Assembly: GCF_900108295.1 (NCBI RefSeq)
Contig: NZ_FNWK01000004.1
Coordinates: 62,001 to 126,000, forward strand
Length of the DNA stretch: 64,000 nucleotides
Reading direction: 5' to 3'
Source of the DNA: Sphingopyxis sp. YR583
GTDB taxonomy: Bacteria; Pseudomonadota; Alphaproteobacteria; Sphingomonadales; Sphingomonadaceae
Shown here piece by piece: positions 2-26,995 of this stretch (the first letter of the stretch is position 1; every line of letters begins with the position of its first letter). The notes under the pieces are model-generated. The model searched no databases and was not told where the DNA came from. It saw only the letters and a list, made by a program, of their open reading frames with translations. The translations under genes were made by a program, and so were the position numbers.

Positions 2-781
2 GTGTCGGAGGGCGCGCAGAAGGCGGGTTATTTCCCGTGGGGAACGATCGACGGCAAGGTCTTGCCGCGCCAACTCGTCGACACCTTCGATCGCGGCGAA
101 CAGGCTGCTGTGCCGATGATCGCTGGGTTCAACATCGGCGAAATCCGTTCGCTGCGTGTCCTTGCGCCGCCGGTTCCGGCGAATGCCGCAGCCTATGAGG
201 TCGCGATCCGTCAGCGTTATGGCGACCTCGCCGACGCATGGCTGAAGCTTTATCCCGCGCGCGACCTTGCCGAAACGATCCTCGCGACGCCGCGTGACGC
301 GCTCTATGGCTGGACGTCGGAACGGCTGGCGATCAAGCAGACCGCGCTAGGTCAATCTGCGTATCTTTATCTTTTCGACCATGGCTATCCAGCGGCGAGC
401 GAGGCAGGGTTGCACGGTTTCCACGCCGCGGAAATTCCGTTCGTGTTCGGCACGGCCAGCGATACGCCGCCCTATTGGCCCAAAATTCCCGACACGGTGG
501 CCGAGCGCCGCCTTGCCACCGCGATGGGCGACTATTGGGTGTCTTTCGCCAGAACCGGACAGCCCGAAGCGGCAGGGCAGGCTGCGTGGCGTCCTTATGG
601 CAAGGATGCCGCCTTCATGGCCTTTGCCGACATCCCGCGTTCGGGCGCGCGGCTGATGCCTGGAATGTACGCCCTTCACGAAGCTGCTGTCTGCCGCCGC
701 CGCGCCGCAGGCAATCAGCCTTGGAACTGGAATAGCGGTATCGTCTCCCCCGTGCTCGCGAAGGGCGAAAATTGTCCATGA
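2..781 (+). CDS. Carboxylesterase type B, C-terminal part (gene begins before the window)
   Basis: This frame is open from the first bases, so the gene is cut by the window edge and only about the last 260 residues are seen. It matches the C-terminal half of type-B carboxylesterases (alpha/beta hydrolases that cleave carboxylic esters). The HGFHAAEIPFVFG segment carries the His of the catalytic triad in its usual context, and the late WxPYG-type stretch is typical. The nucleophilic Ser and oxyanion motif would lie upstream, so activity cannot be judged. The stop TGA overlaps the ATG of the acyl-CoA ligase (ATGA), which suggests coupled translation: ester cleavage followed by activation of the freed acid. 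Substrate unknown. Confidence 0.85.
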   Translation: MSEGAQKAGYFPWGTIDGKVLPRQLVDTFDRGEQAAVPMIAGFNIGEIRSLRVLAPPVPANAAAYEVAIRQRYGDLADAWLKLYPARDLAETILATPRDALYGWTSERLAIKQTALGQSAYLYLFDHGYPAASEAGLHGFHAAEIPFVFGTASDTPPYWPKIPDTVAERRLATAMGDYWVSFARTGQPEAAGQAAWRPYGKDAAFMAFADIPRSGARLMPGMYALHEAAVCRRRAAGNQPWNWNSGIVSPVLAKGENCP

Positions 782-2364
782 TTCACGGTATGATGCAGGA
801 TTATCCGCTTACCCTCGACAAATTCCTCGATCATGCGGCGCGCTGGCATGGCGATGCCGAGGTCGTGACGGCACGCGAGGACGGCAGCGTGGCGCGCATC
901 GGCTACGGTCCCCTGCGCGAACGCAGCCTTGCGATATCGTCGCTGCTCACCGGTTTCGGGGTGGGCGAGGGCGATCGCGTCGCGACGCTCGCATGGAACA
1001 GCCAGGCACATGTCGAGGCATGGTACGCCACGATGGGCATCGGCGCCGTCTGTCACACCCTCAATCCGCGCCTGACCGCGCCGCAGCTCGCGGCCATGGC
1101 GGTGCAATCGGCGGCGAAGCTGCTGATTGTCAGCGCCGATCTGTTACCGCTCGCGCGATCGATCGTCGAGCGTGCACCGGCGATTGGGCAGGTTCTGGTC
1201 ATTGACGGGCGGGCGGGCGACTGGCCGGCATCCGCTCCGCCGCTGCTTGAGCTTGAGGGGCTGATCGGCGACGCACCGGAGGGCGCCCAATGGGGCGGCT
1301 TTGACGAGCGTTCGCCCGCCGGCCTCTGCTTCACCTCCGGAACCACGGGGGCGCCGAAGGGCGTGACCTACACGCATCGCGCAAGTTTCCTCCACACACT
1401 GCGCGCCCTGCAGGCCGATGTCATGGCCTTCACGCATCGTGATGCCGTGCTCGCCGTGGTGCCGATGTTCCACGCCAATGCCTGGGGTCTTCCCTTCGCG
1501 CTCCCCGCCGTCGGCGGTAAGCTCGTGCTCCCGGGCCGACAGGCGGACGGTGCGAGCCTAGCGCGACTGATCGCGGCCGAGAATGTGACGGTCGGTGTCG
1601 GCGTGCCCACCGTCTGGCTCGGCGTGGTCGAACATCTCGAAGCCGAGGGTGGGGAACTGCCGTCGCTGAAGCGCATCATTGTTGGCGGGGCGCCGATGCC
1701 GCCGGCGCTGATGGAGCGGATCGAGCGACGGCTTGGCGTCACTGTCCAGACAAGCTGGGGCATGACCGAATTGTCGCCGCTCGGCACGATCGCTCCTCCG
1801 GATGATCCGCTGCGCACCGCGTCGGTGTCCGGCCGCCCCGCTATCGGCGTTGACCTGCTGCTCACCGATGCAGCGGGTGTGGCGCTGCCCGAACAGCGCG
1901 GGGTCGAGGGGCATCTGCGCGTCCGCGGCGCGGCCGTTGTCGAACGCTATCTGGGACAGGAAGTGTCCGCGACCGACGATGGCGGCTGGTTCGCGACCGG
2001 CGACCTCGCGCGGATCGACGCGCGGGGCAATCTGTCGATCACCGGCCGCGCCAAGGATCTGATCAAATCGGGCGGCGAGTGGATCAACCCTGCCGAGATC
2101 GAGGCTGTCGTCGGGGCGCTGCCGCAGGTGTCGCTCGCCGCGGTGATCGGCCGCGAGGATCCCAAATGGGGCGAGCGGCCGGTGCTGCTCGTCGAGCTTG
2201 GCGCAGACACGGATATCAGCGATGCCGACCTCCTCGCGCCGCTTGCGGGCCGGGTGGCACCCTGGTGGATTCCCGATGCGGTCGTGCGCCTTGCCGCCAT
2301 GCCGCTGGCGCCGACGGGAAAAATAGATAAGATTCGCTTGCGGAACGACCATGGCGCGGGTTGA
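778..2364 (+). CDS. AlkK-like acyl-CoA synthetase (AMP-binding family)
   Basis: It activates a carboxylic acid to its CoA thioester through an acyl-adenylate, in the cytoplasm. The P-loop-like CFTSGTTGAPKG lies at about residues 183-195, the GWFATGDLARID motif near 403, and the catalytic Lys in APTGKIDK near 514. Length (528 aa) fits medium-chain ligases of the AlkK branch. I chose ATG 778 because it overlaps the esterase stop; ATG 790 is an alternative. A clear paralogue lies at 17413-18996, and both follow esterase genes. Chain length or aromatic preference cannot be read from sequence. The end overlaps the start of the TetR gene by 14 bases. Confidence 0.93.
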   Translation: MIHGMMQDYPLTLDKFLDHAARWHGDAEVVTAREDGSVARIGYGPLRERSLAISSLLTGFGVGEGDRVATLAWNSQAHVEAWYATMGIGAVCHTLNPRLTAPQLAAMAVQSAAKLLIVSADLLPLARSIVERAPAIGQVLVIDGRAGDWPASAPPLLELEGLIGDAPEGAQWGGFDERSPAGLCFTSGTTGAPKGVTYTHRASFLHTLRALQADVMAFTHRDAVLAVVPMFHANAWGLPFALPAVGGKLVLPGRQADGASLARLIAAENVTVGVGVPTVWLGVVEHLEAEGGELPSLKRIIVGGAPMPPALMERIERRLGVTVQTSWGMTELSPLGTIAPPDDPLRTASVSGRPAIGVDLLLTDAAGVALPEQRGVEGHLRVRGAAVVERYLGQEVSATDDGGWFATGDLARIDARGNLSITGRAKDLIKSGGEWINPAEIEAVVGALPQVSLAAVIGREDPKWGERPVLLVELGADTDISDADLLAPLAGRVAPWWIPDAVVRLAAMPLAPTGKIDKIRLRNDHGAG

Positions 2365-3103
2365 CCGGCAAGGGGGCGTCGCGGCAGGGGCGGCGACGGA
2401 ACAGAAACTGGAAGTCGGACGAGTGGCAGAACAGGCGAAAACGCGTCGGCGGTCGACCAAGGCCGAACAGCGCGCCGAGACGATGGAGCAGATCCTCGAC
2501 GAGGCAGAGTTGCTGTTTTCGCGGCACGGCCTGCACGGCGTCACGCTGAAGGACGTCGCGAAGCGCGTCGGTGTGCACCACACGCTGCTCAACTATTATT
2601 TCGAGGACAAGAAGAAGCTGTTCGATGCCGTGTTCGCACGGCGGGCGGTGGTGACGAGTACGAAGCGGATGCAGGCGCTCGACGAATATGATCGTGCGAG
2701 CAGCGGCAAGCCGACGATCGAAGGCGCACTGCACGCCTTTCTCGACACCGACCTCGATCTCTATATCCACGGCGGCGACGGCTGGAAGAATTACGGCGCG
2801 CTCGGCGCGCAGGTCGCGAACACGCCCGAATGGGGCGCCGAACTGATGGACAGCCATTTCGATCCGGTGGTCCTCCGCCTGATCGAGCTTCTGAAAAGGG
2901 CGATGCCCGACTGCGCCGAAGAGGATATCTTCTGGGGTTATCATTTCGTCACGGGCGCGCTGATGGTCACGCTCGCGCGTACCGGCCGCATCGACAAGCT
3001 TTCGGGCGGGGTCTGCAAGTCCGAGGATTTCGAAGCCATCAAGGCCCGCATGGCGTCGTTTATGGCCGCCGGCTTCCGGCAAATCTGCAGCGCCAAGGCC
3101 TGA
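2351..3103 (+). CDS. TetR-family transcriptional regulator
   Basis: DNA-binding repressor-type protein. The N-terminal helix-turn-helix (about residues 48-90 from this start) reads as TetR, with TLKDVAKRVGVHHTLLNYYF as the recognition region, followed by a helical ligand domain. This start overlaps the ligase gene. GTG 2423, just after a GGAAG stretch and just before a basic segment, is a good alternative and would give a more usual length of about 226 aa. The gene sits between the ligase and the SDR gene. The near-palindrome at 3147-3166, right before the SDR start, is the obvious candidate operator. The ligand may be an acyl-CoA or a related acid, by analogy with FadR-type TetR proteins, but this is not shown. 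Confidence 0.92.
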   Translation: MARVDRQGGVAAGAATEQKLEVGRVAEQAKTRRRSTKAEQRAETMEQILDEAELLFSRHGLHGVTLKDVAKRVGVHHTLLNYYFEDKKKLFDAVFARRAVVTSTKRMQALDEYDRASSGKPTIEGALHAFLDTDLDLYIHGGDGWKNYGALGAQVANTPEWGAELMDSHFDPVVLRLIELLKRAMPDCAEEDIFWGYHFVTGALMVTLARTGRIDKLSGGVCKSEDFEAIKARMASFMAAGFRQICSAKA

Positions 3104-15113: not shown

Positions 15114-15163
15114 ATGACATCGATAACAATAGCGACTATGCGTTGCCTCCACGGGAGAGGTAT

Positions 15164-16405
15164 ATGGATGCAAGACATGGCGATCTGGCGGCCAAAGTCG
15201 GCGGCTCCGGCCGGCATGAAGGCGATTCCGGCAGGCTGGGACTCGGCGTTTCGGGCCTCTATCTGGCCCTCTATATCCACTATGGCTTTTTCGCTTTTCT
15301 GCCGCTTTGGCTGAAGGCGACGGGGGCGTCGCCCGAGGAAATCGGCATATTGCTGGCGATCCCGCTGGTCCTGCGCTTGTTGACCGTCGCGCCCTTTTCG
15401 GCCTTTGTCGGCCGGCGCGGCTGGGTGCGCAATGCCATCGCCTACACCTCGCTGGCGTCGGCGGCGATCGTGTTGTTGCTGCTCGGCGAGCCCGACCATG
15501 CCGGGCGGATCGTAATCGTCATCCTCTTCTCGATCGTCTGGGATCAGATCCCGGTGCTGACCGATGCCTATGCGGTGATGGCGGTGCGCAGCCGGTCGCT
15601 CGATTTCGGGCGATTGCGCGTCTGGGGATCGATCGCGGTCGTCGCGTCGAACGCCGCAGCGGGATGGGCGATCGGGATCGCCGGGATCAAGATGTTGCCG
15701 CTGATGATCGCGGTACTGCTGATCGCACCGGCGATGGTCGCGTTCCTGTTGCCCACGGATCGCAAGCTTTCTGCCGTCGACGATGCAGCTGGCGGACGGT
15801 GGCGCGACCTGATCGGCGACCGCGGCCTGATCCTCGCGATGGTCGCGGCCTCACTGATCATGGGAAGCCACGGCGTGCTGACCAGCTTCGGGGCGATCCA
15901 GTGGGAGTCGCAAGGGATTTCGACGACGACGATCGGCCTGTTGCAGGCACTGGCGGTCGCGGCGGAGATCGGCGCTTTCTGGTTCGGTGCGAAGCTGCTC
16001 GGCAATCGCGATCCGCGCCTGTTGATCGTCGCGGGCGCGATCGCGGGGGCGCTGCGCTGGGCGATCATGGCGGCCAGCCCCGGGCTTCCGCTGCTCGTTT
16101 TCGGCCAGCTGCTCAACGGGATCACCGCGACCGGTACGATCCTTGGCATCATGCTCGTGATCGCGCAGCGCGTGCCGACGCATCTCAGCGCGACCGCGCA
16201 GGGGATGAACGCGGTGCTGCTGGGACTGGTGCTGGCCGTCGCAACGGCGGGGTCGGGGCTTTTGTGGTCCTATGGTCTGGCCGTCGCCTATCTCGCGATG
16301 TCGGTGCTCGCGCTGCTCGGCGCGCTTTGCGCATGGCCGCGCGGGGCCGGTTTCGGGAAACATGATTCAACGGACATGCTGTCCACCTCGGGAGCCGAAG
16401 GATGA
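15164..16405 (+). CDS. MFS transporter, LacY/HcaT-like (MFS_1_like)
   Basis: 413 aa with about 12 membrane segments. The opening GLGVSGLYLALYIHYGFFAFL and the WLKATGASPEEIGILLAIP loop resemble the HcaT/LacY/NupG-type half of the major facilitator superfamily, proton symporters for sugars, nucleosides or aromatic acids. ATG 15164 has GGGAGAGG just upstream. The stop overlaps the ATG of an exported esterase (ATGA), so the two are co-translated. Since the trehalase further right has no signal peptide, this carrier is the best candidate in the window for bringing deacylated sugar (or the freed acid) across the inner membrane. That role is inferred. Confidence 0.87.
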   Translation: MDARHGDLAAKVGGSGRHEGDSGRLGLGVSGLYLALYIHYGFFAFLPLWLKATGASPEEIGILLAIPLVLRLLTVAPFSAFVGRRGWVRNAIAYTSLASAAIVLLLLGEPDHAGRIVIVILFSIVWDQIPVLTDAYAVMAVRSRSLDFGRLRVWGSIAVVASNAAAGWAIGIAGIKMLPLMIAVLLIAPAMVAFLLPTDRKLSAVDDAAGGRWRDLIGDRGLILAMVAASLIMGSHGVLTSFGAIQWESQGISTTTIGLLQALAVAAEIGAFWFGAKLLGNRDPRLLIVAGAIAGALRWAIMAASPGLPLLVFGQLLNGITATGTILGIMLVIAQRVPTHLSATAQGMNAVLLGLVLAVATAGSGLLWSYGLAVAYLAMSVLALLGALCAWPRGAGFGKHDSTDMLSTSGAEG

Positions 16406-17406
16406 TCCGCCAGACAATGCTTATTTTCGCTGCGCTGCTCGCGGCGGCGACCCCGACACTCGCGCAGGAGGCATCGAAGGTGCAGAATATGCAGGACTGG
16501 CCGCTTCCCGAAACGGTGAGCCCCGAAGGGCGCACTGCCGTGGCGGCGATGGCGGCGCAAAAAATGCCCGACCCGCTGCCGCCCGTCGAGGAAATCCGCA
16601 AATTCGCGGACATGATGCAGGCGACACTCGGCGCGCAGCTAGAAAAGCGTCATGCGGTGCGCATCGAGAATTCGACGATCGCCGGCGTTCCGGTGCGCAT
16701 CGTCTACCCCAAGGGCGTGACCGGCCTCGGCGATGGGCCGGTGCTGCTCAACCTTCACGGCGGTGGCTTCGCGGTCGATTCGGGGTCGCTGACCGAAACC
16801 ATCCCCGTCGCGGCGCGGAGCGGGCTGCCCGTCGTGGCGGTGCTCTATCGGCTCACCCCCGAGCATCCATATCCTGCCGCGCTCGACGATGCGCTGGCAG
16901 TCTATCAGGCGCTGGAAAAGGATCGCGAGGCGAGCCGGATCGGCGTGTTCGGGACGTCGGCGGGCGCGGGCCTGTCGGGACAGCTCGTTGCGAAGCTGAC
17001 GAGCATGGGCAAGCCGATGCCCGGCGCGCTCGGCTATTTCTCGGGCAATGCCGACGCGAGCGTGAAGGGCGATTCAGAAGCATGGATGCCGGGCCCGGGT
17101 TTCGACTGGATCGCGACCTATGCGGGCAAGACCCCGCTGACCGATCCGATCCTGTCGCCCATCCATGGCGATGTTTCGCGCTTTCCGCCGACATTGCTCG
17201 TCACCAGCACGCGGGATTTCCTGCTGAGTCCTACGTCGATCTTCGCGCGTGCGCTGACCGAACAGGGCGTCGATGCGCGGCTCGTGGTGTTCGACGGCCT
17301 GCCGCACGCTTTCTGGGCCTATATGGATATTCCCGAAAGCGATCAGGCGAACGAACTGATCGCGCGCTTCTTCAAGGATAAGCTAAGCAAGACCGCAAAG
17401 AAATAA
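16402..17406 (+). CDS. Exported HSL-type alpha/beta-hydrolase (esterase)
   Basis: 334 aa. It has a clear signal peptide (MIRQTMLIFAALLAAATPTLAQ), unlike the three other HSL-type esterases nearby, so this is probably the periplasmic one. The oxyanion HGGG starts at His119, the nucleophile is Ser186 in GTSAGA, the acid Asp272 in STRDF and the His302 in LPHAFW: a complete hormone-sensitive-lipase triad. The start overlaps the MFS stop. It is most like the cytoplasmic esterase at 20502-21458 (shared SLTETIP and FPPxxLxTSTRD segments). Expected role: cleaving short or medium acyl esters before import by the MFS carrier. Confidence 0.9.
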   Translation: MIRQTMLIFAALLAAATPTLAQEASKVQNMQDWPLPETVSPEGRTAVAAMAAQKMPDPLPPVEEIRKFADMMQATLGAQLEKRHAVRIENSTIAGVPVRIVYPKGVTGLGDGPVLLNLHGGGFAVDSGSLTETIPVAARSGLPVVAVLYRLTPEHPYPAALDDALAVYQALEKDREASRIGVFGTSAGAGLSGQLVAKLTSMGKPMPGALGYFSGNADASVKGDSEAWMPGPGFDWIATYAGKTPLTDPILSPIHGDVSRFPPTLLVTSTRDFLLSPTSIFARALTEQGVDARLVVFDGLPHAFWAYMDIPESDQANELIARFFKDKLSKTAKK

Positions 17407-17412
17407 GGACAC

Positions 17413-18996
17413 TCAACCGTTCGCGAGATGATCGCGATATCGGTCGCGCAGCGCCTTCTTGTCGATCTTGCCTGTCGCGGTCAGCGGAACGGTGTCGAAC
17501 AGGATGTCGTCGGGCATCCACCAGCGCACGACGCGTGTTTCGAGATGCGTGCGGATGGCGTCCGCCGCGACCGTCTCGCCCTCGTGCGTTTCGATGACCA
17601 GCAGCGGGCGCTCTTCCCATTTCGGGTGTTGGACGCCGATCACTGCGGCGATGCGAACGCCGGGACAGCCGACCGCCGCATTTTCAAGGTCGATCGAACT
17701 GATCCACTCGCCGCCCGATTTGATGACATCCTTGGCGCGATCGGTGAGGCGCAGGAAGCCAAAGCGGTCGATCGTTCCGATATCGCCGGTGTCGAACCAG
17801 CCATCGCCGGCGGCGGCGGGCAGGTCGGGGTAATAGCGGTCGACCACCCACGGCCCGCGCACCTGCAACTTGCCCGCCTGTTCGCCGTCCCACGCCAGCG
17901 GTGCGCCTTCGTCGTCGATGATTCGTAGCTCGATCCCGAACTGCATCCGGCCCTGCCGCGTCAGGATCGTCTCGTTCGCGAAATCCTCGCCCTCTGCCAT
18001 CAGCAACGGGGTCGGGGTCGCGATGACACCCAGCGGATTTGTTTCGGTCATGCCCCATATCTGGAGCACGGTGACGCCATAACGCTCGCGGAAGGTCTCG
18101 GCCATCGCGCGCGGAACCGCCGAGCCACCGATGACGAGGCGCTTGAGGTGGCCGACGCCTTTGCCGCTGGTCTCGAGATGGGCGAGATACATCGTCCAGA
18201 TCGTCGGCACGCCGCCCGAGAAGGTCACGCCTTCGCCCAGGATCAGTTCAGCGAGGCTTGCGCCGTCCATCTTGTCGCAAGGGAGGACGAGCTTGCAGCC
18301 ATTGATCGCGGCGGTGAACGGCAGGCCCCACGCCGTCGCATGATACATCGAGGAACAGGGCATGATCGTGTCGAAGGCGCTGAACCCGAACGCGCTGCTG
18401 AGCCCCGCCGCCATTCCATGGAGTACGATCGAGCGGTGGCTGTAGAGTACGCCCTTGGGATCGCCGGTCGTACCCGAGGTATAACAGAGGAAAGCGGCGG
18501 CATTCTCGTCGAAGCGCGGCCAGTCGAAATTGCCGTCCTCGGCGGCGACGAGTTCCTCATAGGGCGCGGCGAGCAGCACAAAATGTTCGATGGCAGGAAG
18601 TAATGGCTTCAGCCGTTCGACCAGCTCGGCGAGGTTCGCGTCGAAGAAAAGGATGCGGCTGCCCGCATGGTTGATCGTGAAAGCGATCTGATCGTCGCTG
18701 AGCCGGGGATTCGCGGTGTGGAGCACGGCGCCGATGCCGGGGACCGCGTAAAAAAGTTCGAGATGTCGGTGGGTGTTCCACGCGAGCGAGGACACGCGGT
18801 CGCCGCTTTCGATCCCCAGCGTGCCGAGCATCTGCGCCGCGCGCCGCGATCGGATCTCGCAGCCCGCCCAGTCGTACCGCCACGTCGGCTCACCTGCGAG
18901 TTTCGAGACGATCTCGCGCGCCCCGTGCGCGCGGGCGGCGTGGGTCAGGATTGCACTGATCTGCAGGGGGGCATCCTGCATCAAACCGGGTAGCAT
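17413..18996 (-). CDS. AlkK-like acyl-CoA synthetase, last gene of the trehalase operon
   Basis: 527 aa adenylate-forming ligase. CYTSGTTGDPKG at about residue 170, GWFDTGDIGTID near 402, DRAKDVIKSGGEWISS just after, and the catalytic Lys in TATGKIDKK near 513. It is paralogous to the ligase at 778-2364 (the WGLPF, GVPT-W and IWGMTE-NPLG blocks align). It starts 24 bases after the trehalase stop on the same strand. It meets the MFS-esterase pair head-on with only six bases between. In an operon with a TonB receptor, an esterase and a trehalase it probably activates fatty acids released from a sugar ester. Confidence 0.93.
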   Translation of the reverse strand: MLPGLMQDAPLQISAILTHAARAHGAREIVSKLAGEPTWRYDWAGCEIRSRRAAQMLGTLGIESGDRVSSLAWNTHRHLELFYAVPGIGAVLHTANPRLSDDQIAFTINHAGSRILFFDANLAELVERLKPLLPAIEHFVLLAAPYEELVAAEDGNFDWPRFDENAAAFLCYTSGTTGDPKGVLYSHRSIVLHGMAAGLSSAFGFSAFDTIMPCSSMYHATAWGLPFTAAINGCKLVLPCDKMDGASLAELILGEGVTFSGGVPTIWTMYLAHLETSGKGVGHLKRLVIGGSAVPRAMAETFRERYGVTVLQIWGMTETNPLGVIATPTPLLMAEGEDFANETILTRQGRMQFGIELRIIDDEGAPLAWDGEQAGKLQVRGPWVVDRYYPDLPAAAGDGWFDTGDIGTIDRFGFLRLTDRAKDVIKSGGEWISSIDLENAAVGCPGVRIAAVIGVQHPKWEERPLLVIETHEGETVAADAIRTHLETRVVRWWMPDDILFDTVPLTATGKIDKKALRDRYRDHLANG

Positions 18997-19020
18997 CGTC
19001 TCTCCTTTCGCGGCGCCTGT

Positions 19021-20502
19021 TTACGCCGTCGGTGGCATCAGGTCGTACCGATCGATAAAATCGGCAGTCACACCATTTGTCCAGCCGAACCCGGTCTGCG
19101 TATCATATTCGCCGCCGCCGCCGGCCCCGGGCGTCTCGACGTCATATTTCTCGAACAGCAGGCCGGTGCGGGCAAAGGTCTCGCCAACCGTGTGAACCCA
19201 GCGCTCGGCGATGTCGCGCGCCAACGCGTCGTGGCCATAGTTTCTGAGGCCCGCGACCGCGATCCATTGCAAGGGCGCCCAGCCGTTCGGCCGGTCCCAT
19301 TGCTGACCGGACCGCGCCAGCGTCGTGTTGAGCCCGCCCGAAGCCAGAAGGTCGTCCTCGACCGCCTTTGCCGTCGCGTCGGCTTGCGCCTGCGTCGCGG
19401 CCCCGACCAGCAGCGGTGCCAAAGATGCAGCCGTCAGCGGACTCCGAAGCACCCCGTTTTCGATGTCGTAATCGGAAAAATAGCCGCCCGCCGCGTTCCA
19501 GAGGCAGTTTATCGCCTCGCGCCGATCGGAGGCAAGACGTGCGTATCGAGCGGCTTCGGCGTCGTCGCTCGCGGCGATGGCCGTTTCCAGACCGAACAGG
19601 AATGCGTTGAGATCGATCGGCGCGATCATCGTGGTGCGGATCGACGAGAGCGCTTTGCCATCGAGCCAGCGCGATGAAAAATCCCAGCCGCTTTCGGCAC
19701 CGGCGCGAAGGTCTCGGTAGACGTCGCCGGCCGCACGCCCGCTTTCGGAAGCGGTCGCGACATCCTCGCGCCAGCTTTCGTCGCGCGGCGTGTCGCGTGG
19801 ATCCCAATAGCGGTTGAGAAGCTGGCCGCCGGCAAGCCGGGCGACGCGTGCGCCCTGACTGCCCGGGGCAACGCTTTCGGAGCCCTCCATCCACCAGCCA
19901 TGTTCGCGTTTCATTGCCGACAGTCGGCGCGCCGCGACTGCAGGGCGGTCGTCGCCGAGCAGTTCGACCATCATGTGAAATAATGGCGGCTGCGAACGGC
20001 CGAGATAATAGGTGCGCGATCCGTTGGGGATGTGACCGTGCGTGTCGATCAGGTCGGTCAGCGTATCGACGATGCCGTTGGCGAGTTCGAATTCACCGTC
20101 GCGGACGAGGCCGAGCATGGTGAAGAAACTGTCCCAATAATATATCTCGCGAAAGCGGCCACCGGGGACGACATGCCGATGCTGGACGGGAAGCGCCGAT
20201 CCACTCGATGCCTGTTCGGGCGCGCGGGCGAGATCTTTCCAGAGCGCGCGGATATGGTCGCGGAGCGGGAGCACGGCAGGGCGCGCCTCCATCGCCGCTG
20301 CGGGCAGGTCGAAATTCGCGGCGATAAACGACCGCAGGGCCTCATCGCCCGCCGGAAGCTTGGCGAAATCGCGCATGATCTCGTCGACCGGGCGCCGGGG
20401 CAGCGCATCGACGAAGGTCTTGCCATCGGCCAGGATCGCGCGCTCCTGAACCTTTGCGAGCAATGGGCCATAGAGGTCGGCAGGGCTGGGTTCGACGCCC
20501 AT
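19021..20502 (-). CDS. GH37 alpha,alpha-trehalase, cytoplasmic
   Basis: 493 aa. It hydrolyses alpha,alpha-trehalose to two glucoses by inversion. Both family signatures are intact: PGGRFREIYYWDSFF (113-127) and QWDRPNGWAP (401-410). The expected acid Asp274 sits in SGWDFSSRW, and the base Glu465 follows the glycine loop GGGGEY with GFGWTNGV after it. No signal peptide is seen from ATG 20502, which overlaps the esterase stop by one base (TGATG); the longer frame to 20577 adds only arginine-rich shadow sequence. So this is a TreF-like cytoplasmic enzyme. Finding it coupled between an esterase and an acyl-CoA ligase is unusual and points to an acylated trehalose substrate. Confidence 0.93.
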   Translation of the reverse strand: MGVEPSPADLYGPLLAKVQERAILADGKTFVDALPRRPVDEIMRDFAKLPAGDEALRSFIAANFDLPAAAMEARPAVLPLRDHIRALWKDLARAPEQASSGSALPVQHRHVVPGGRFREIYYWDSFFTMLGLVRDGEFELANGIVDTLTDLIDTHGHIPNGSRTYYLGRSQPPLFHMMVELLGDDRPAVAARRLSAMKREHGWWMEGSESVAPGSQGARVARLAGGQLLNRYWDPRDTPRDESWREDVATASESGRAAGDVYRDLRAGAESGWDFSSRWLDGKALSSIRTTMIAPIDLNAFLFGLETAIAASDDAEAARYARLASDRREAINCLWNAAGGYFSDYDIENGVLRSPLTAASLAPLLVGAATQAQADATAKAVEDDLLASGGLNTTLARSGQQWDRPNGWAPLQWIAVAGLRNYGHDALARDIAERWVHTVGETFARTGLLFEKYDVETPGAGGGGEYDTQTGFGWTNGVTADFIDRYDLMPPTA

Positions 20503-21458
20503 CAGCTTGCGAGATGGCGGCTGAAGAAATCGGCTTGCGCGGCGAGTGCCACGTCGGTTTCCGGGCATTCGATCCACGCCCAGAATGCGTGCGCCATGCC
20601 TTCATATACGCGCAGGTCGACGTCAACTCCGGCGCGGCGCAGCGCGAGATCGGCGAGCACCGTATGGCTGAGCAACTGGTCGCGCGTGCTGGTCATCAGC
20701 ATCATGGGCGGAAAGCCCGACAGGTCACCACGGGCAGGGGAGAAGAGCGGATCGCCGGGATCACAAGCCCCCCGATATTCGGCGAGCGTTTCGGCCGCCG
20801 TGCGCGAGCCCATGATGGAAGGCAGATAGGCCTCGCAATCGCCGATCAGCGAGAGGTCGCAGGCGCCGGAGAAGACGCCGGCCGCGGCGGGCATCGGCAG
20901 CCCTTCGGCCTTGATCCGCGCCAGCAATTGCACTGTCAGGATCGCACCCGCCGAGCTGCCATAGATACCTATAGAGCCGGGCGCCCGATGCGCGAGCGCG
21001 TCGATGTAGACCGCAAGCGCATCGTCGACCGCCGCAGGAAAGACATGCTCGGGTGCCATCCGGTACATCACGGTGACGACCGGGATGCCGGTCAGCCCGG
21101 CGATCGGAATCGTTTCGGTCAGCGAGCCGGCGTCCACGATAAAGCCGCCGCCGTGGAAGTTGATGAGCAGGCGCGGGTCGGCGGGATCGCTATCCTGCCG
21201 CCGCACATGCTTGACCGGTATCCCGGCAATTTTGTCCTTGGTGACATCGACCCCGAAGCGTTTCGCGCGGCCCTTGTTCAACGGTTTCAGGTGATTGGCC
21301 GCGGCGGCGCGGACCGCCGCCCGGGTGATCGGGTTGCGGAGCAGCGTCGCGGTGACCTCGGGGGCCGAGCCGCCCTTCAGCATCGGGTCCATGACCGCCC
21401 GCGCCTCGGCGCTGACGGTCATGGCAAAGGGTGGTTGCGGCGGCGACGCGGCAGCCAT
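20502..21458 (-). CDS. HSL-type alpha/beta-hydrolase (esterase), cytoplasmic
   Basis: 318 aa with no signal peptide. It has the HGGGF oxyanion motif, the nucleophile in GSSAGA, the acid in TSTRDQ and the His in MAHAFW, the full triad of the hormone-sensitive-lipase family. It starts three bases after the TonB receptor stop, and its own stop overlaps the trehalase ATG, so all are co-translated. ATG 21422 is an alternative start. The partner in sequence is the exported esterase at 16402-17406. It probably removes acyl groups from the imported compound before trehalase acts. The acyl length is unknown; this family often prefers short to medium chains. Confidence 0.9.
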   Translation of the reverse strand: MAAASPPQPPFAMTVSAEARAVMDPMLKGGSAPEVTATLLRNPITRAAVRAAAANHLKPLNKGRAKRFGVDVTKDKIAGIPVKHVRRQDSDPADPRLLINFHGGGFIVDAGSLTETIPIAGLTGIPVVTVMYRMAPEHVFPAAVDDALAVYIDALAHRAPGSIGIYGSSAGAILTVQLLARIKAEGLPMPAAAGVFSGACDLSLIGDCEAYLPSIMGSRTAAETLAEYRGACDPGDPLFSPARGDLSGFPPMMLMTSTRDQLLSHTVLADLALRRAGVDVDLRVYEGMAHAFWAWIECPETDVALAAQADFFSRHLAS

Positions 21459-21461
21459 CGA

Positions 21462-23765
21462 TCAGTTCCCGAACCGGTAGCCGATCCGCACGCCGTACAT
21501 CCGCGGCTCGGTATAGGTCAGGCCGACGGTGCCCGAACTGCCGGCATATTGATCGAGCACGCCGACCGGCTTCGCCTCGTTGGTGATATTGTTCGCAAAC
21601 AACGTCACGTCGACCGGACGGCCGCCGATGTCCTTCAGCCCGATGGTGGCGTTGAGCAGGCCGTATGCGGGCAGGAAGTTATAGAAGGAGGCATTGGTCT
21701 GCGCGGTCGAGACCTTGCTCTGCCGCGCATAGTTGACCGACATCGCCAGGTCGCCCGCACTTCCCAGCGATGTCTCGTAAGACGCGCCGACCGAGAATTT
21801 ATGCTTGGGCGTATAAGGAAAGGGCGCGCCGTTCAGGATCGCGCCGGCGCTGGGGTCGGCAACGTCGGTGTAGCGCGCGTCGATATAGGAATAGCTGCCG
21901 TTCAGGGTCAGTCCCCGCGCGGGCATGACCGCGAGGTTCAACTCGACGCCTTCGATCTTGCCCTTCGCGGCGCTGCGCGTGACGTTGAGCAGCACAGGGC
22001 CGCTCGGCGTCTGCACTGCCTCCACGGTGGTGCGCTGGATGTCGTCGTAAATGCCGCGATAGGCGGCGACATTGGCGCGAACGTCGACATTGCCGACAGA
22101 GAATTGCGATTTCAGCCCAACCTCGATGTCGGACAGGCGCTCGGGCGGGAAGGTGCGGAACGCCGAACCGTCGGGCACGGGCCCATTGGCGCCTCCCGAT
22201 TTATAGGCGTCGCGTGCGGTAACATAGACATGCACCCCGGGCGTCACGTCATAGTCGAGCGTCGCGGTGTAGCTCGGATATTTGCTGTCGACCGATCCCG
22301 TGATCGCGGGCGGTCCGCCGATCGTCTGCGAGGAGAAGCTATGCTCCCAGGTGTAGCGCAGGCCGCCGGTGACGCTGAGCCCGGTCAGCGCGCCCGACAG
22401 CTTGCCGAGATCGACCGTCGCCTGCCCGAAGACGGCCTCGCTATGGTTGCGGTTGTCGAAATAGCCGAAAATCGGCGGGATCAGCGTGCCAATCGGGAAG
22501 AAGGTATATTCCTCGATACCCGACGGATTCTTCGTGGTCGCGCGATCGAGATAGCCGCCGACCGCGAAATCGATCGCATCGTCCAGCAACGTGCCCTGAA
22601 GCTGCAGTTCTTCGGTCAGGACGTCCGGTGCCAGCGTGTTGATATTGCGCGAGGACTGGCCCGCCAGCGGAAAGGGCGTGGCATCATAGTCGTAGCCGTA
22701 ACGATTGCGGAACTGCGAATAGCTGATGATGTTACGCAGCTTGATATTGTCGGTGATCTGCACCGATGCCTGATTGATCACCTGCCAATATTCGACCTCC
22801 GAAAACTGGTCGAGATCATAGGACACGCGGCGCGGGCCCCGCGCCTGCTGTTCGGCGACGATGGTCGCGGCGCCCGGATGGAAGGCGAGGACGGGGATGA
22901 AGCCGAACGGCGGGCCGAGGTCGGCGCCGGCCGCCGGATTGAACGCGTCGATGACGGTGCCGCCGCCATTATTGTCCGAATGATAATAGCGCAGCATCGT
23001 ATAAAGTTCGATGTTGTCGGTCGGCCGAAGCGTCAGGCCGAAACGGAAGCTTTCGTAGGAAAGATTGTCATAATCCTTGCCCGCGAAGTTAGGGCCGACA
23101 TCCTTGGTATAGCCGTCGCGCCGGCCCACTTCGCCGGCGATGCGCAGCAGCACCCGGCCGGGAACGATCGGGGTGTTGAGCGCGCCTTCGATCCGGCGGT
23201 CGTTATAGTTGCCGAACTGGACGCGGGCATGGCCTTCGAATTCGTCCTTGGGCTTGACCGGCTCGAACAATATGTTGCCGCCGGTGGCGTTCTTGCCGAA
23301 CAGGGTGCCCTGCGGCCCGGCCAAGACCTGAACGTTGGCGAGGTCGAAATAGGTGCCGACGCGGCCGTCGATGTTCACGCTGTTGGGAACTTCGGCGAAA
23401 TAGTTGAGGACGCCCGGGGTCGAGCCAAAGGCGGGGCCCTGACCGCGCAGTGCGAAAAAGGCGAACTCGCGGGGATAGCCGCCGTTGATCGTGAACAGCG
23501 ACGGCGTATTGTCGGCGAGCGAGGTGCGGTCGGTGATGCCTTTTTGCGCAATCGTCTCTTCGGTGAAGGCGGTCACCGCGATCGGGACGCTTTGCAGATT
23601 CTCTTCGCGGCGGCGGGCGGTGACGATGATGTCGCCGAGACCGCTGTCGTCGCTGGCGACGGCTTGGTCGGCGGGCGGCGTTTCGGTCTGCGCAAAGGCG
23701 GCGGCGGGCAGCAGGCTCGCGCTGCTCGCAAGGGCAAGCAGAAAGGCGGAACGCATCGAAATCAT
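21462..23765 (-). CDS. TonB-dependent outer-membrane receptor of the trehalase operon
   Basis: 767 aa. The signal peptide ends near AAAFAQ; GDIIVTARRREENLQSVP is the typical FecA/sphingomonad-type plug start, and GPQGTLFGKNATGG ends the plug. The barrel ends in VRIGYRFGN, with Asn after the usual terminal Phe-Gly. ATG 23765 follows GGGAGGGAAGTG, so I prefer it to the GTG one codon upstream. It heads a tightly packed operon with esterase, trehalase and acyl-CoA ligase, and a LacI-type operator lies about 60 bases upstream. Predicted job: energy-driven import of the acylated sugar through the outer membrane. Receptors of this subgroup also take up many other amphiphiles. Confidence 0.93.
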   Translation of the reverse strand: MISMRSAFLLALASSASLLPAAAFAQTETPPADQAVASDDSGLGDIIVTARRREENLQSVPIAVTAFTEETIAQKGITDRTSLADNTPSLFTINGGYPREFAFFALRGQGPAFGSTPGVLNYFAEVPNSVNIDGRVGTYFDLANVQVLAGPQGTLFGKNATGGNILFEPVKPKDEFEGHARVQFGNYNDRRIEGALNTPIVPGRVLLRIAGEVGRRDGYTKDVGPNFAGKDYDNLSYESFRFGLTLRPTDNIELYTMLRYYHSDNNGGGTVIDAFNPAAGADLGPPFGFIPVLAFHPGAATIVAEQQARGPRRVSYDLDQFSEVEYWQVINQASVQITDNIKLRNIISYSQFRNRYGYDYDATPFPLAGQSSRNINTLAPDVLTEELQLQGTLLDDAIDFAVGGYLDRATTKNPSGIEEYTFFPIGTLIPPIFGYFDNRNHSEAVFGQATVDLGKLSGALTGLSVTGGLRYTWEHSFSSQTIGGPPAITGSVDSKYPSYTATLDYDVTPGVHVYVTARDAYKSGGANGPVPDGSAFRTFPPERLSDIEVGLKSQFSVGNVDVRANVAAYRGIYDDIQRTTVEAVQTPSGPVLLNVTRSAAKGKIEGVELNLAVMPARGLTLNGSYSYIDARYTDVADPSAGAILNGAPFPYTPKHKFSVGASYETSLGSAGDLAMSVNYARQSKVSTAQTNASFYNFLPAYGLLNATIGLKDIGGRPVDVTLFANNITNEAKPVGVLDQYAGSSGTVGLTYTEPRMYGVRIGYRFGN

Positions 23766-23823
23766 CACTTCCCTCCCAAAGGATAGCCGGATTCGTCCGG
23801 TCGATGATGCGGATGCTCGAAAA

Positions 23824-23837
23824 TGGTATCGATGTCA
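23824..23837. promoter_or_regulatory. LacI-type operator 1 (TonB-esterase-trehalase operon side)
   Basis: TGGTATCGATGTCA matches the shared 14-bp palindrome TGATATCGATATCA at 12 of 14 positions, with the central ATCGAT intact. It lies in the divergent gap between the TonB receptor operon and the esterase gene at 23916, about 59 bases from the receptor start. The LacI gene is 1 kb away. Confidence 0.65.
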
Positions 23838-23889
23838 ATAGAAGTTGCAAACGGAATGGGAAAGTCTATCAATGGATCATATTCAGACC

Positions 23890-23903
23890 TGATATCGATA
23901 ACA
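23890..23903. promoter_or_regulatory. LacI-type operator 2 (before the divergent esterase)
   Basis: TGATATCGATAACA matches TGATATCGATATCA at 13 of 14 positions. It ends 12 bases before the esterase start codon and is 66 bases (centre to centre) from operator 1, so a LacI-family dimer pair could loop the short promoter region. Confidence 0.7.
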
Positions 23904-23915
23904 GAGAGGGATGGG

Positions 23916-24845
23916 ATGAGCGACGCCGGGCAATTCGGGCCGTGGGTCAGCGACGAGGCAAAGCTGCGGTTCCGCGCTTTTCTTAAGGAGTCGGCAACGC
24001 CGTCCGACCTGGCCGCAGCACGCCCCTTCTTTCGTGACTATAATCAGCGGCTGCTCGACAAGGCGCTGGCCCGATATGCCGTCGATGTTGTGACGCGTGA
24101 GATCGCCGGGGTCACGGTATATGACGTCGTTCCGTCGGGCGGCGCTGCCGATGCGCCGGTGCTGCTCTGCCTGCACGGCGGCGCCTTCTTGTGGGGCGAG
24201 GGGCCGGGTGCCATGCTCGAAGCGGTACCGATCGCGGCGACCGCCGGAATGCGCGTGCTGGCGATCGATTACCGGCTTGCGCCCGAACATGCCTATCCCG
24301 CCGCGGTCGACGATGTCGTTGCGGTCTATCGCGCCCTCACCGATACCGTCGATCCGGCGAGTATCGGCATATATGGCTGCTCCGCGGGGGCGGTGCTGAC
24401 AACGCAGGTGGTTGCACGCCTTCTCCATGACGACGTGCCGGGGCCCGGTGCGATCGGGATATTTCATGGAGCGCCCCTCCCGTTCGCGGGCGATGCGGCG
24501 CTTGCGCAGTCGCTGTTCGATCCCCGGGCCGAAACGGGCGCGGTGCCGAAGATCGAGGAGCTTCCCTATTTTGCGGGTGCCGACCTGTCCGATCCGCTCG
24601 TGCTATCCGCCGGGCATCCCGAGCTGCTCGCACGCTTCCCGCCGAGCTTGCTGATCTCGGCGACGCGTGACTTCGCCGCCAGCGCGGTGTCGGTCATGCA
24701 TCGCCGTTTGCTTGCTGCGGGCGTCGATGCCGATTTCGTTCTGTTCGATGGCCTCTGGCACGCGCATCATATGGATGTCGACCTGCCCGAATCGGTCGAA
24801 ACCTATGCGATCATCGCCGATTTCTTCCGCAAACGGCTGGGCTAG
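23916..24845 (+). CDS. HSL-type alpha/beta-hydrolase (esterase), divergent from the TonB operon
   Basis: 309 aa with no signal peptide. Oxyanion HGGAF, nucleophile in GCSAGA, acid in SATRDF and His in LWHAHH. ATG 23916 follows GAGAGGGATGG and lies just downstream of a LacI operator; the longer frame to 23823 would run through both operators, so I reject it. Its last four bases overlap the end of the convergent LacI gene. It differs clearly from the other esterases in the locus and so may take a different acyl position or chain. Confidence 0.9.
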   Translation: MSDAGQFGPWVSDEAKLRFRAFLKESATPSDLAAARPFFRDYNQRLLDKALARYAVDVVTREIAGVTVYDVVPSGGAADAPVLLCLHGGAFLWGEGPGAMLEAVPIAATAGMRVLAIDYRLAPEHAYPAAVDDVVAVYRALTDTVDPASIGIYGCSAGAVLTTQVVARLLHDDVPGPGAIGIFHGAPLPFAGDAALAQSLFDPRAETGAVPKIEELPYFAGADLSDPLVLSAGHPELLARFPPSLLISATRDFAASAVSVMHRRLLAAGVDADFVLFDGLWHAHHMDVDLPESVETYAIIADFFRKRLG

Positions 24846-25843
24846 CGGCTGGTCTCGCGTGCAATCAACTCGACGGGCAATGCCTGCGCCGTGGCGGACG
24901 CGTTGCCCTCGATCAAGGCGATGAGCGCATGGGCGAGCGCGTGGCCCGCCTCGGCGCCGTCCTGACGGATCGAGCTGATCGACGGACGATGGACGCTTGC
25001 GATCGGTGCGTCGTCGAAGCCGACGATCGCGACGTCGCCGGGAACCGAGAGCCCGCGCGCGGACAAGGCGTCGCAGGCGCCGGCGGCGATGAAGTCGCTC
25101 GCGGCAAAGAGCGCGTCGAATGCCGTTCCTGCGTCGAGCGCGTCGCGCACCGCCGCGGCGCCACCCTCGGCGGTGAAGGGGCAGGGCAGCGCGCCGACCA
25201 GCCGCGCCTCGCTCGACGCGAGCGCTTCGCGAAACCCTTCGAGCCGCGCGGCAATTTCGGGATGCTGTATGTCGCCGAGGAACAGAAGGCGGGTCGCGCC
25301 CCGGCCGACCAGATGCTCGGCAGCGAGTTTGCCGCCCATGCGATTGTCGCTGCCGACGACTTTCGCGCTGACCCCGGGAACGGGTTCGCCCCAGACGACG
25401 ATCGGCAGGTTCATTGCCGACACCTGCGTAACGCGGTGTGCGCCTTCGCCCTGTCCCAGCATCACGGCACCATCGGCGCCGACCGCGCTCGATGACAGGA
25501 AATGCTCGTTGGTGGTCAGCAAGGTCGAATAGCCCGCCGGGGTCAGCGTTTCGAGCAGCCCGCCGATGATCGAGAGGATCAGCGGGTCGGTATGCGACTG
25601 GCGGCCGGGGTCGATATGGTCGATCACCACCGCGATCGTCCGCGTTTCGCGCGTCCGCAGGCTGCGCGCGGCGACATTCATGCGGTAACCGACCTCGTTC
25701 GCCACCTTGGCGATGCGTTCGCGCACTTCGGGGCGGACAAGGTCGCTGCCGCGCAGCGCGCGCGACACGGTGATTTTCGAGACGCCGGCAAGCGTCGCGA
25801 CCATTTCCATGGTCGGGCGTTCGTCCTTGCCGATCCTGCCCAT
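24842..25843 (-). CDS. LacI-family transcriptional regulator
   Basis: 333 aa. The N-terminal LacI helix-turn-helix (MEMVATLAGVSKITVSRALRG, read as residues 12-32) is followed by the hinge and a periplasmic-binding-protein-like sugar domain, with VGFDDAPIASVHRPSISSIRQ as the typical late motif. LacI proteins bind palindromes and are usually released by a sugar or sugar phosphate. Three sites of one palindrome class are found only in the gaps before the TonB operon, the esterase at 23916 and the esterase at 25873, so this is very probably their regulator. A trehalose-related effector would fit the trehalase. Ends overlap the neighbouring esterase by four bases. Confidence 0.93.
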   Translation of the reverse strand: MGRIGKDERPTMEMVATLAGVSKITVSRALRGSDLVRPEVRERIAKVANEVGYRMNVAARSLRTRETRTIAVVIDHIDPGRQSHTDPLILSIIGGLLETLTPAGYSTLLTTNEHFLSSSAVGADGAVMLGQGEGAHRVTQVSAMNLPIVVWGEPVPGVSAKVVGSDNRMGGKLAAEHLVGRGATRLLFLGDIQHPEIAARLEGFREALASSEARLVGALPCPFTAEGGAAAVRDALDAGTAFDALFAASDFIAAGACDALSARGLSVPGDVAIVGFDDAPIASVHRPSISSIRQDGAEAGHALAHALIALIEGNASATAQALPVELIARETSR

Positions 25844-25872
25844 GATTGAACGTCCCCCGAAAATCCGAAACC

Positions 25873-26778
25873 CTATGTAGCCGCGAAGTAGCGGCGCACC
25901 AGCCCTCCGATCAAGTCATTGGCGGCAGCAACGGCGGGAATCGTGATCGGCAGGAACTGAAATCCGTGCGGCAGGCCCTGCAGGCGGCGCGCCAGCGTTT
26001 CGACGCCGGCGCGGACCAGTGCGGCGGCATAATATTCGCCATCGTCGCGCAGCGGGTCTTCCGAAGCGGTCAGCACGATCGCGGGAGCGAGTCCCGCGTG
26101 GCTCTCTGCAAGAAGGGGCGAGGCGAACGGATCGGATTCGGGAACATCGCCAAGATAATATTCGCGGCATGCGTCGAGATAGGTTTTCGACAGGCCCGGC
26201 GCCGCGATTTCAGTGAACGACGGCAGCGAGAAACGCATGTCGGTCGCGGGATGGATCAGCAACTGGAACAGCGGCTGCGGCTTACCCTCGGCGCGCAGGC
26301 GCAGCGTGGCGGCGGCGGTCAGATTGCCGCCCGCGCTTTCGCCGCCGAGCGCAATACGGCCCGGGTCGCAACGGAGGTCGGCCGCCGACCGGCGCGCCCA
26401 GTCTAGCGCGGTCATCGCGTCGTCGAGGCCTGCGGGAAATTTGTGCTCGGGCGCCAGCCGGTAACCGACGCCAAGCACCGCGCAGCCGCTTGCCGCTGCG
26501 AGGTGGCGCGTCATCGCGTCGTGCGTCTCAAGGTCGCCGAACATCCAGCCCCCGCCATGAAGAAAGACGAGCAGCGGCAGCGGGGCGTCCGACGCGGGGC
26601 GATAGAGGCGGACCGGCACGCCCCCGGCGTCGAAATCCTCGACATGATCGATATCGGCTCCCGGCATCGCCGCCGCCATCATCGCCATATGCGCGCGCAT
26701 CATCGGGATGATCTCCGGGCTCAGCGGCGGCATGTCCTGTGGTTGGCCGATAGCGGCCGCGATATCGGGATCGAGCAT
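25873..26778 (-). CDS. HSL-type alpha/beta-hydrolase (esterase/lipase), LacI-controlled
   Basis: 301 aa, classic bacterial hormone-sensitive-lipase form: HGGGW oxyanion motif, nucleophile in GESAGG, acid in TASEDPLRDDG and His in LPHGFQF. No signal peptide. ATG 26778 has GAGAGGAATT upstream; the in-frame ATG at 26808 lies within the LacI palindrome. A perfect LacI operator stands 16 bases upstream of the start codon. This GESAGG type differs from the other three esterases, so the locus holds at least two branches of the family. Probably another acyl-ester hydrolase of the same regulon. Confidence 0.92.
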   Translation of the reverse strand: MLDPDIAAAIGQPQDMPPLSPEIIPMMRAHMAMMAAAMPGADIDHVEDFDAGGVPVRLYRPASDAPLPLLVFLHGGGWMFGDLETHDAMTRHLAAASGCAVLGVGYRLAPEHKFPAGLDDAMTALDWARRSAADLRCDPGRIALGGESAGGNLTAAATLRLRAEGKPQPLFQLLIHPATDMRFSLPSFTEIAAPGLSKTYLDACREYYLGDVPESDPFASPLLAESHAGLAPAIVLTASEDPLRDDGEYYAAALVRAGVETLARRLQGLPHGFQFLPITIPAVAAANDLIGGLVRRYFAAT

Positions 26779-26793
26779 GGAATTCCTCTCAGA

Positions 26794-26807
26794 TGATATC
26801 GATATCA
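26794..26807. promoter_or_regulatory. LacI-type operator 3 (perfect palindrome)
   Basis: TGATATCGATATCA is a perfect 14-bp palindrome directly before the esterase gene at 25873-26778. It is the consensus form of operators 1 and 2. Confidence 0.75.

Positions 26808-26919: not shown

Positions 26920-26995
<76 letters not shown>

Follow-up and report, generated by a model that had tools for sequence, protein, structure and literature searches.

Our analysis of a 64,000-nucleotide stretch of Sphingopyxis sp. YR583 (hereafter the window; G000:C4:62001-126000, in a genome of 4.31 Mb, with positions counted from the window start) revealed a locus that we regard, with a probability of roughly 0.58, as a LacI-controlled CUT-type locus (carbohydrate utilization containing a TonB-dependent receptor, TBDR) for acylated trehalose, mainly with short or medium acyl groups. 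Nine genes in four transcription units span positions 15164-26778 and are flanked by an amino-acid permease and a tRNA-Thr. Two units run rightward (MFS-EstA and EstC) and two leftward (TBDR-EstB-trehalase-ligase and EstD-LacI). All nine genes (9/9) exceeded the Pfam cut-offs of their families, and every gene family named in an earlier note on this DNA was present as called. The genes and the operator-like sites are:

15115-15128, no strand: LacI-type operator TGACATCGATAACA before the MFS-EstA unit (palindrome search)
15164-16405, plus strand: MFS carrier, PF12832 MFS_1_like, 127.7 bits (Pfam)
16402-17406, plus strand: EstA, HSL esterase of the GTSAG subfamily, above the NCBIfam cut-off (Pfam and NCBIfam)
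17413-18996, minus strand: acyl-CoA ligase, AMP-binding, without signal peptide (Pfam, NCBIfam)
19021-20502, minus strand: GH37 trehalase without signal peptide, 448 bits (Pfam and motifs)
20502-21458, minus strand: EstB, HSL esterase without signal peptide (Pfam, NCBIfam)
21462-23768, minus strand: TBDR, plug and barrel above cut-off, first gene of the leftward operon
23824-23837, no strand: operator TGGTATCGATGTCA in the divergent EstC/TBDR promoter region (palindrome search)
23890-23903, no strand: operator TGATATCGATAACA, 66 bp from the 23824 site (palindrome search)
23916-24845, plus strand: EstC, HSL esterase without signal peptide, nearest to the GCSAG subfamily model and below its cut-off (Pfam; start set by comparison)
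24842-25843, minus strand: LacI-family regulator (Pfam), conserved together with its operators
25873-26778, minus strand: EstD, HSL esterase without signal peptide, nearest to the LipP1 model and below its cut-off (Pfam)
26794-26807, no strand: operator TGATATCGATATCA, a perfect palindrome before EstD-LacI (palindrome search)

The gene families, their order, signal-peptide status, the operator-like sites, conservation and the exchange of activating enzymes are observed directly in the sequences. From them we infer a scheme, including its substrate, transport direction, repression and inducer, acyl-chain length and order of steps. The TBDR would carry the acylated sugar across the outer membrane, and a periplasmic EstA would strip some of the acyl groups. 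The MFS carrier, proposed as the inner-membrane importer, would then take up partly acylated or free trehalose, and EstB, EstC and EstD, which lack signal peptides, would complete the deacylation. A cytosolic GH37 enzyme would split trehalose into two glucoses, while the acyl-CoA ligase (a CoA-transferase in some relatives) would activate the released acid. LacI is predicted to repress all four units until an inducer arrives.

Details of the gene calls agree with this layout. EstA overlaps the MFS gene by 4 bases and has a signal-peptide-like N-terminus, as do most relatives possessing EstA. Signal peptides were called from a hydropathy scan read by eye, using the highest-value start of each gene. 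The trehalase start was taken as the ATG at 20502 (the mechanical open reading frame, ORF, begins further out, at a GTG at 20577); with it, EstB and the trehalase overlap by one base and the operon gaps of 3, -1 and 24 bases given in the earlier note were reproduced. EstD precedes lacI by 29 bases in the same orientation. The longest EstC ORF (start 23823) is too long: in relatives, in-frame stops precede a conserved start that matches 23916. The four HSL esterases (4/4) passed the Pfam Abhydrolase_3 cut-off, with HGG and GxSAG motifs in their translations. Four HSL genes within 11.65 kb compare with about 0.06 expected if genes are placed independently, a figure based on at least 23 HSL genes in the genome (33 of 37 candidates scored).

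The locus is conserved. In a trehalase scan of genome contigs, from which the best 80 of 132 loci were kept (numbered here with an L), nine shared the surrounding genes (L002-L010), and the closest relatives of the window trehalase were mostly Sphingopyxis records. Among 80 genomes of the genus, 22 had GH37 (23 genes, one of them split over two contigs). A trehalase of the window kind, which we call type 1, was present in 13 of the 80 at 72-100% identity, and the TBDR (82-100% identity; 13 candidates scored per genome) in the same 13. Their neighbourhoods (for one genome, that of L003) contain the same genes as far as the contigs reach, the exception being one with ligase b in place of the window's ligase a. 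In a second genus the TBDR was found in 6 of 295 genomes (E up to 1e-180; 3 candidates scored per genome), and in 6/6 a GH37 gene adjoins it or shares its gene run; a LacI gene, an MFS gene and three or four HSL genes accompany them. The TBDR and a type-1 trehalase thus occur together in 19/19 genomes, and the MFS gene is present in every type-1 locus whose contig reaches that far. Because the set recurs in two genera, a gene order found only in this genome, one of the outcomes that the earlier note had named as fatal to its proposal, is ruled out.

The same note had suggested a search for a conserved TonB-HSL-GH37-AMP-ligase order. The gene set recurs and the exact order varies: one of the 13 genus genomes has another ligase elsewhere in the locus, and the second genus mostly carries a CoA-transferase for the ligase. 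The idea of uptake, deacylation, cleavage and acid activation acting on acyl-trehalose holds as a plan through the comparative tests tried. More widely, in a sample of 397 genomes of the family (2 candidates scored per genome) the TBDR was found only in the window's own genome and in G395. Among 120 listed TBDR relatives in the protein database, 110 were at least 68% identical, and their names include Sphingopyxis, Novosphingobium, Sphingomonas and Tsuneonella. In the Novosphingobium locus L009, EstC matches as two overlapping pieces (L009:5739-6762). Two scanned records carry Bacillus in their titles. The trehalase of L024 shares 53% identity with that of the window, within the sphingomonad range, and L078 matches the same residues at the same identity as L052, a Rhizobiales record. 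Both are perhaps mislabelled or contaminated assemblies.

Operators at three promoters had been claimed, and four sites, at 15115, 23824, 23890 and 26794, do lie in three promoter regions. These palindromes, all near TGATATCGATATCA, stand one before MFS, one before EstD and two between EstC and TBDR; with the conserved EstC start at 23916, both middle operators fall between two divergent starts. The relaxed pattern TGNNATCGATNNCA has seven matches across the 4.31-Mb genome, four of them at the locus promoters; the other three are inside predicted ORFs, one about 45 bases past the predicted start. The operator before MFS is also present in L002, L003, L004, L006 and L007. At the TBDR promoter the operator pair, spaced 66-67 bp, occurs in 19/19 type-1 loci whose contig covers the region (at most 3 mismatches per site). 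In 71 other loci (1.43 Mb) no site was found at 1 mismatch or fewer and seven at 2 mismatches, two of these seven in L032, a trehalase-esterase-sulfatase locus. Since operator-like sites are common to all four units, every gene of the locus is presumed to be under one LacI.

The trehalase is the sole GH37 match in the genome. It passes the NCBIfam TreF subfamily cut-off (527.2 vs 512) and falls below both TreA cut-offs (533.6 vs 560 and 558.8 vs 941). It aligns along nearly its whole length with the solved structure 2jf4, which we take to be the E. coli periplasmic trehalase, and carries the GH37 signature and active-site motifs PGGRFREIYYWD, SGWDF and FEKYD, of which SGWDF presumably holds the acid Asp and FEKYD the base Glu. 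In type-1 enzymes 16 of 17 motif residues are intact in 16/16 aligned rows, and the remaining Arg in 15/16; three further rows are not part of this count.

Predicted compartment separates these enzymes from trehalases without HSL neighbours. No signal peptide was seen in 15/15 type-1 GH37 N-termini, nor in 9/9 GH37s of a second kind of locus in the genus (type 2, below) and that of L032; the MFS gene is present in loci with signal-peptide-free GH37 where the contig allows. GH37s without HSL neighbours had a signal-peptide-like N-terminus in 30/30 cases. The exceptions are HSL-linked GH37s with a signal peptide, in L150, L151, L153, L157 and L161 (L153 also has MFS). Lacking a signal peptide, the type-1 trehalase is probably intracellular, in the compartment in which the ligase would act. 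In the GH37 tree, type 1 forms one clade (15 rows, support 100/99) apart from type 2 and L032. A single origin of the MFS-linked, signal-peptide-free trehalases, a group defined once the first tree had been seen, was only marginally rejected (p-AU 0.046, approximately unbiased test), so that two origins are likely.

A carboxylate-activating enzyme was present in 19/19 of the loci from the two genera: ligase a in 12, ligase b (28-29% identical to ligase a) in 2 and a CoA-transferase in 5. Ligase a orthologues (90-95% identity) adjoin the trehalase, or lie one ligase gene further, in 12 of the 13 type-1 genus genomes, and L190 and L191 have a third ligase in addition. With the enzyme of L155, one of these five loci, as the reference, the CoA-transferases show 67-87% identity. 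To us, nothing points more strongly to activation of a released acid than this exchange of one chemistry for another within a single slot. For the L155 enzyme, the nearest solved chains are 4-hydroxybutyrate CoA-transferases, and it scored below the butyryl-CoA:acetate CoA-transferase equivalog cut-off (TIGR03948; 250.3 vs 674.8); this affinity hints at short acyl chains. The best-scoring model for the window ligase was 3-(methylthio)propionyl-CoA ligase (NF005426; 662.3 vs 822), to which it is related without being a member.

Relatives of the window ligase at 66-67% identity were found in 7 of the 80 genus genomes (L209, L210, L214-L218), and all seven lie in a conserved LacI-MFS-TBDR-GH68-ROK-beta-lactamase-HSL-ligase locus. 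The plan is that of the window, with GH68 and a ROK kinase replacing GH37. The ROK protein is nearest to the fructokinase ScrK, below its cut-off. As GH68 and a fructokinase-like kinase point to sucrose, and HSL and ligase to acyl groups, the locus probably serves acyl-sucrose utilization; no paper on such a GH68-type locus was found in the open-licence PMC literature.

Several observations weigh against the acyl-trehalose reading of the window locus. A third ligase clade (83-85% identity, 18 rows) has alike neighbourhoods in the 8/8 seen (L206, L207, L208, L211, L212, L213, L219 and L220). Besides the ligase they encode a carboxylesterase, a beta-lactamase-type protein and a protein of 434 residues that matches no Pfam family. 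Among the scanned genes of these 8/8 loci none was recognised as a sugar enzyme, so that each reads as an ester locus from its gene content and the ligase would follow esterases, not trehalose. HSL esterases are numerous, as the genome count given above illustrates. The esterase set varies among type-1 loci: in the neighbourhoods from the second genus, no EstB was detected in L240 or L241 and no EstA in L239. In L009, which is outside the 19 loci counted for acid activation, neither EstA nor an activating enzyme was found within contig reach besides the split EstC, and it is possibly a decaying copy. Related genomes are non-independent observations. HSL linkage holds for only 7 of the 36 GH37 genes in the family sample. 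Finally, and against short chains, the window ligase passes the long-chain-fatty-acid--CoA ligase subfamily cut-off (NF004837; 512.6 vs 476), and its third-best solved match, 1ult, is a long-chain enzyme.

The abundance of HSL esterases, their changing set and the ester loci without a recognised sugar enzyme would all suit mixed scavenging, in which the trehalase serves free trehalose, the esterases and ligase act on separate co-occurring esters, for example from fungal or insect remains, and LacI only co-times the two; plain TBDR-GH37 loci, presumably for free trehalose, also exist. Those plain loci, however, have a GH37 with a signal peptide and, with the seeds used, no HSL or MFS, whereas the GH37s of types 1 and 2 lack a signal peptide and their loci include MFS. 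The TBDR and type-1 trehalase moreover stay together in 19/19 genomes, and GH68 takes the trehalase's place in a parallel locus with esterase and ligase. We consider mixed scavenging unlikely.

Natural esters of trehalose make the preferred substrate, a short- or medium-chain acyl-trehalose, plausible without being proof. According to one review (PMC4365757), many actinobacteria make trehalose esters as surface lipids and biosurfactants, and the sources of those listed are Rhodococcus, Nocardia, Tsukamurella, Mycobacterium and further actinobacteria. Among them are Tsukamurella diesters that combine a C2-C6 chain with a C16-18 chain, and a Nocardia succinic trehalose tetraester with C7-C12 chains; oligosaccharide and sulfated forms also occur (PMC4365757). 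That the esters covered there are actinobacterial also favours a variant, suggested in the earlier note, in which the same machinery takes long-chain actinobacterial trehalolipids (diesters, tetraesters or mycolates), as do the NF004837 score and the presence of 1ult among the best solved matches of the ligase. The 5 of 19 loci whose CoA-transferase is nearest to 4-hydroxybutyrate enzymes, and close to the butyryl-CoA:acetate model although below its cut-off, speak against long chains. HSL esterases, too, generally favour short acyl chains. The activating enzymes point in two directions, one being close to 4-hydroxybutyrate CoA-transferases and the other passing a long-chain cut-off; short or medium chains are the more likely reading, and a long-chain trehalolipid substrate seems to us improbable.

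Trehalase-esterase loci other than type 1 bear on what the trehalase cleaves. Type-2 loci occur in 9 of the 80 genus genomes (L183-L185, L199 and L201-L205) and contain a TBDR, alpha/beta hydrolases, one or two GH1, two HSL, MFS, GH37, and GH3 and/or GH42, with LacI where it is in reach. One genus genome has both types, and another has GH37 and two TBDRs without HSL. In the genus, 22 of the 23 GH37 genes are HSL-linked, against 5.5% expected per 16 kb (1142 HSL matches in 322.8 Mb, at most 33 candidates scored per genome). The two counts did not detect HSL genes in the same way, and the 22 linked genes, coming from related genomes, do not amount to 22 separate events. Without the window's own gene, the family sample gives 6 of 35 HSL-linked, against 1.9 expected at genus density (P = 0.011).

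Type-2 neighbours pair both with signal-peptide-free GH37 (L183 and kin) and with a signal-peptide GH37 of another lineage (L150). Similarly, sulfatases about 66-69% identical and carrying the CxPxR motif occur in L032 and in L157 and L161, each time together with HSL and TBDR, and the GH37s that they adjoin belong to different lineages. The sulfatase-TBDR-HSL-GH37 runs are L032:2658-11536, L157:3985-10725 and L161:9024-15685, and the three loci are candidates for sulfated acyl-trehalose utilization. That the same accessory set accompanies more than one trehalase lineage suggests a need for trehalase activity in type-2 and sulfatase loci.

The presence of GH1, GH3, GH42 or sulfatases in these related loci could also mean that the substrate is another acylated glycoside and that GH37 specificity is relaxed or altered. 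A Gln-to-His change at one motif position, seen in 7/7 aligned type-2 rows including L032 (three identical rows were not aligned) where 51 other rows have the otherwise invariant Gln, would fit. The type-1 enzymes nevertheless keep the motif residues looked at, apart from a single residue in one row, and GH37 is known only as trehalase, which leaves a different glycoside very unlikely.

Returning to acylated trehalose, we tentatively suggest, at somewhat less than even odds, that sphingomonads have a class of acyl-disaccharide utilization loci built on one plan (LacI, TBDR, MFS, HSL and a disaccharide hydrolase, with acid activation often added). Its variants would match known decorations of trehalose: type 1 acyl groups only, type 2 (GH1, GH3, GH42) acyl groups and beta-linked sugars, as in trehalose oligosaccharide lipids, and the sulfatase type acyl and sulfate groups, as in trehalose sulfolipids, with the GH68 locus as the sucrose counterpart. 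If acylated trehalose is the substrate, the locus supplies candidate genes and an operator for feeding on trehalose esters, with induction as a clear test, and would also be a compact, regulated group of enzymes with which sugar esters could be trimmed; part of the sphingomonads' many HSL esterases could then be assigned to sugar-ester loci by neighbourhood.

The surroundings of the locus were also compared. In 8/8 genus genomes similarity to the right flank starts at the end of the tRNA-Thr (window 26920-26995) that faces the locus, at 26920, and the left-flank genes of the window were not in the stretches fetched around the tRNA-adjacent gene in these eight genomes. The region left of the tRNA-Thr is a variable region beside a tRNA. 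A repeat of the tRNA end was found in neither the window nor the genome, and none of the seven phage-integrase matches of the genome lies inside the window. An island at the tRNA-Thr was accordingly rejected, there being no evidence for a mobile element, as were plasmid copies (best plasmid TBDR match 36.5% identical). At the window's left end (2-3103), the end of a carboxylesterase gene, an AMP-binding ligase and a TetR regulator stand in a row, possibly another ester-utilization unit.

In the open-licence PMC literature we found no bacterial pathway feeding on trehalose esters, nor such a locus; the gene combination appears to be undescribed, its individual parts being of known kinds. Within the genus, an esterase locus with a TonB receptor and a permease is reportedly present in Sphingopyxis sp. 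MTA144, the fumonisin-degradation cluster, which is said to differ from the window in that its substrate is a toxin ester and it has no sugar hydrolase. Closer in layout are the plain TBDR-GH37 loci of Sphingomonadaceae (L167, L170, L173, L177, L179, L181, L182 and L200). They too have a TBDR beside GH37, but their GH37 has a signal peptide; lacking, as noted above, detected HSL esterases and MFS, they probably serve free trehalose.

A CUT locus is defined by a TBDR beside degradative enzymes, an inner-membrane transporter and a sugar-related regulator (PMC1790865). The window has a TBDR, GH37, MFS and a LacI with operator-like sites, and by this published definition its predicted gene functions make it a CUT locus. 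The type case is the sux locus of Xanthomonas campestris (PMC1790865), in whose main text the string "trehal" does not occur. Both loci have a TBDR, an intracellular disaccharide-cleaving enzyme (predicted as such in the window), an inner-membrane carrier and a LacI-type repressor (PMC1790865). The window differs from sux in that its disaccharide enzyme is a GH37 and in that it adds HSL esterases and an acid-activating enzyme.

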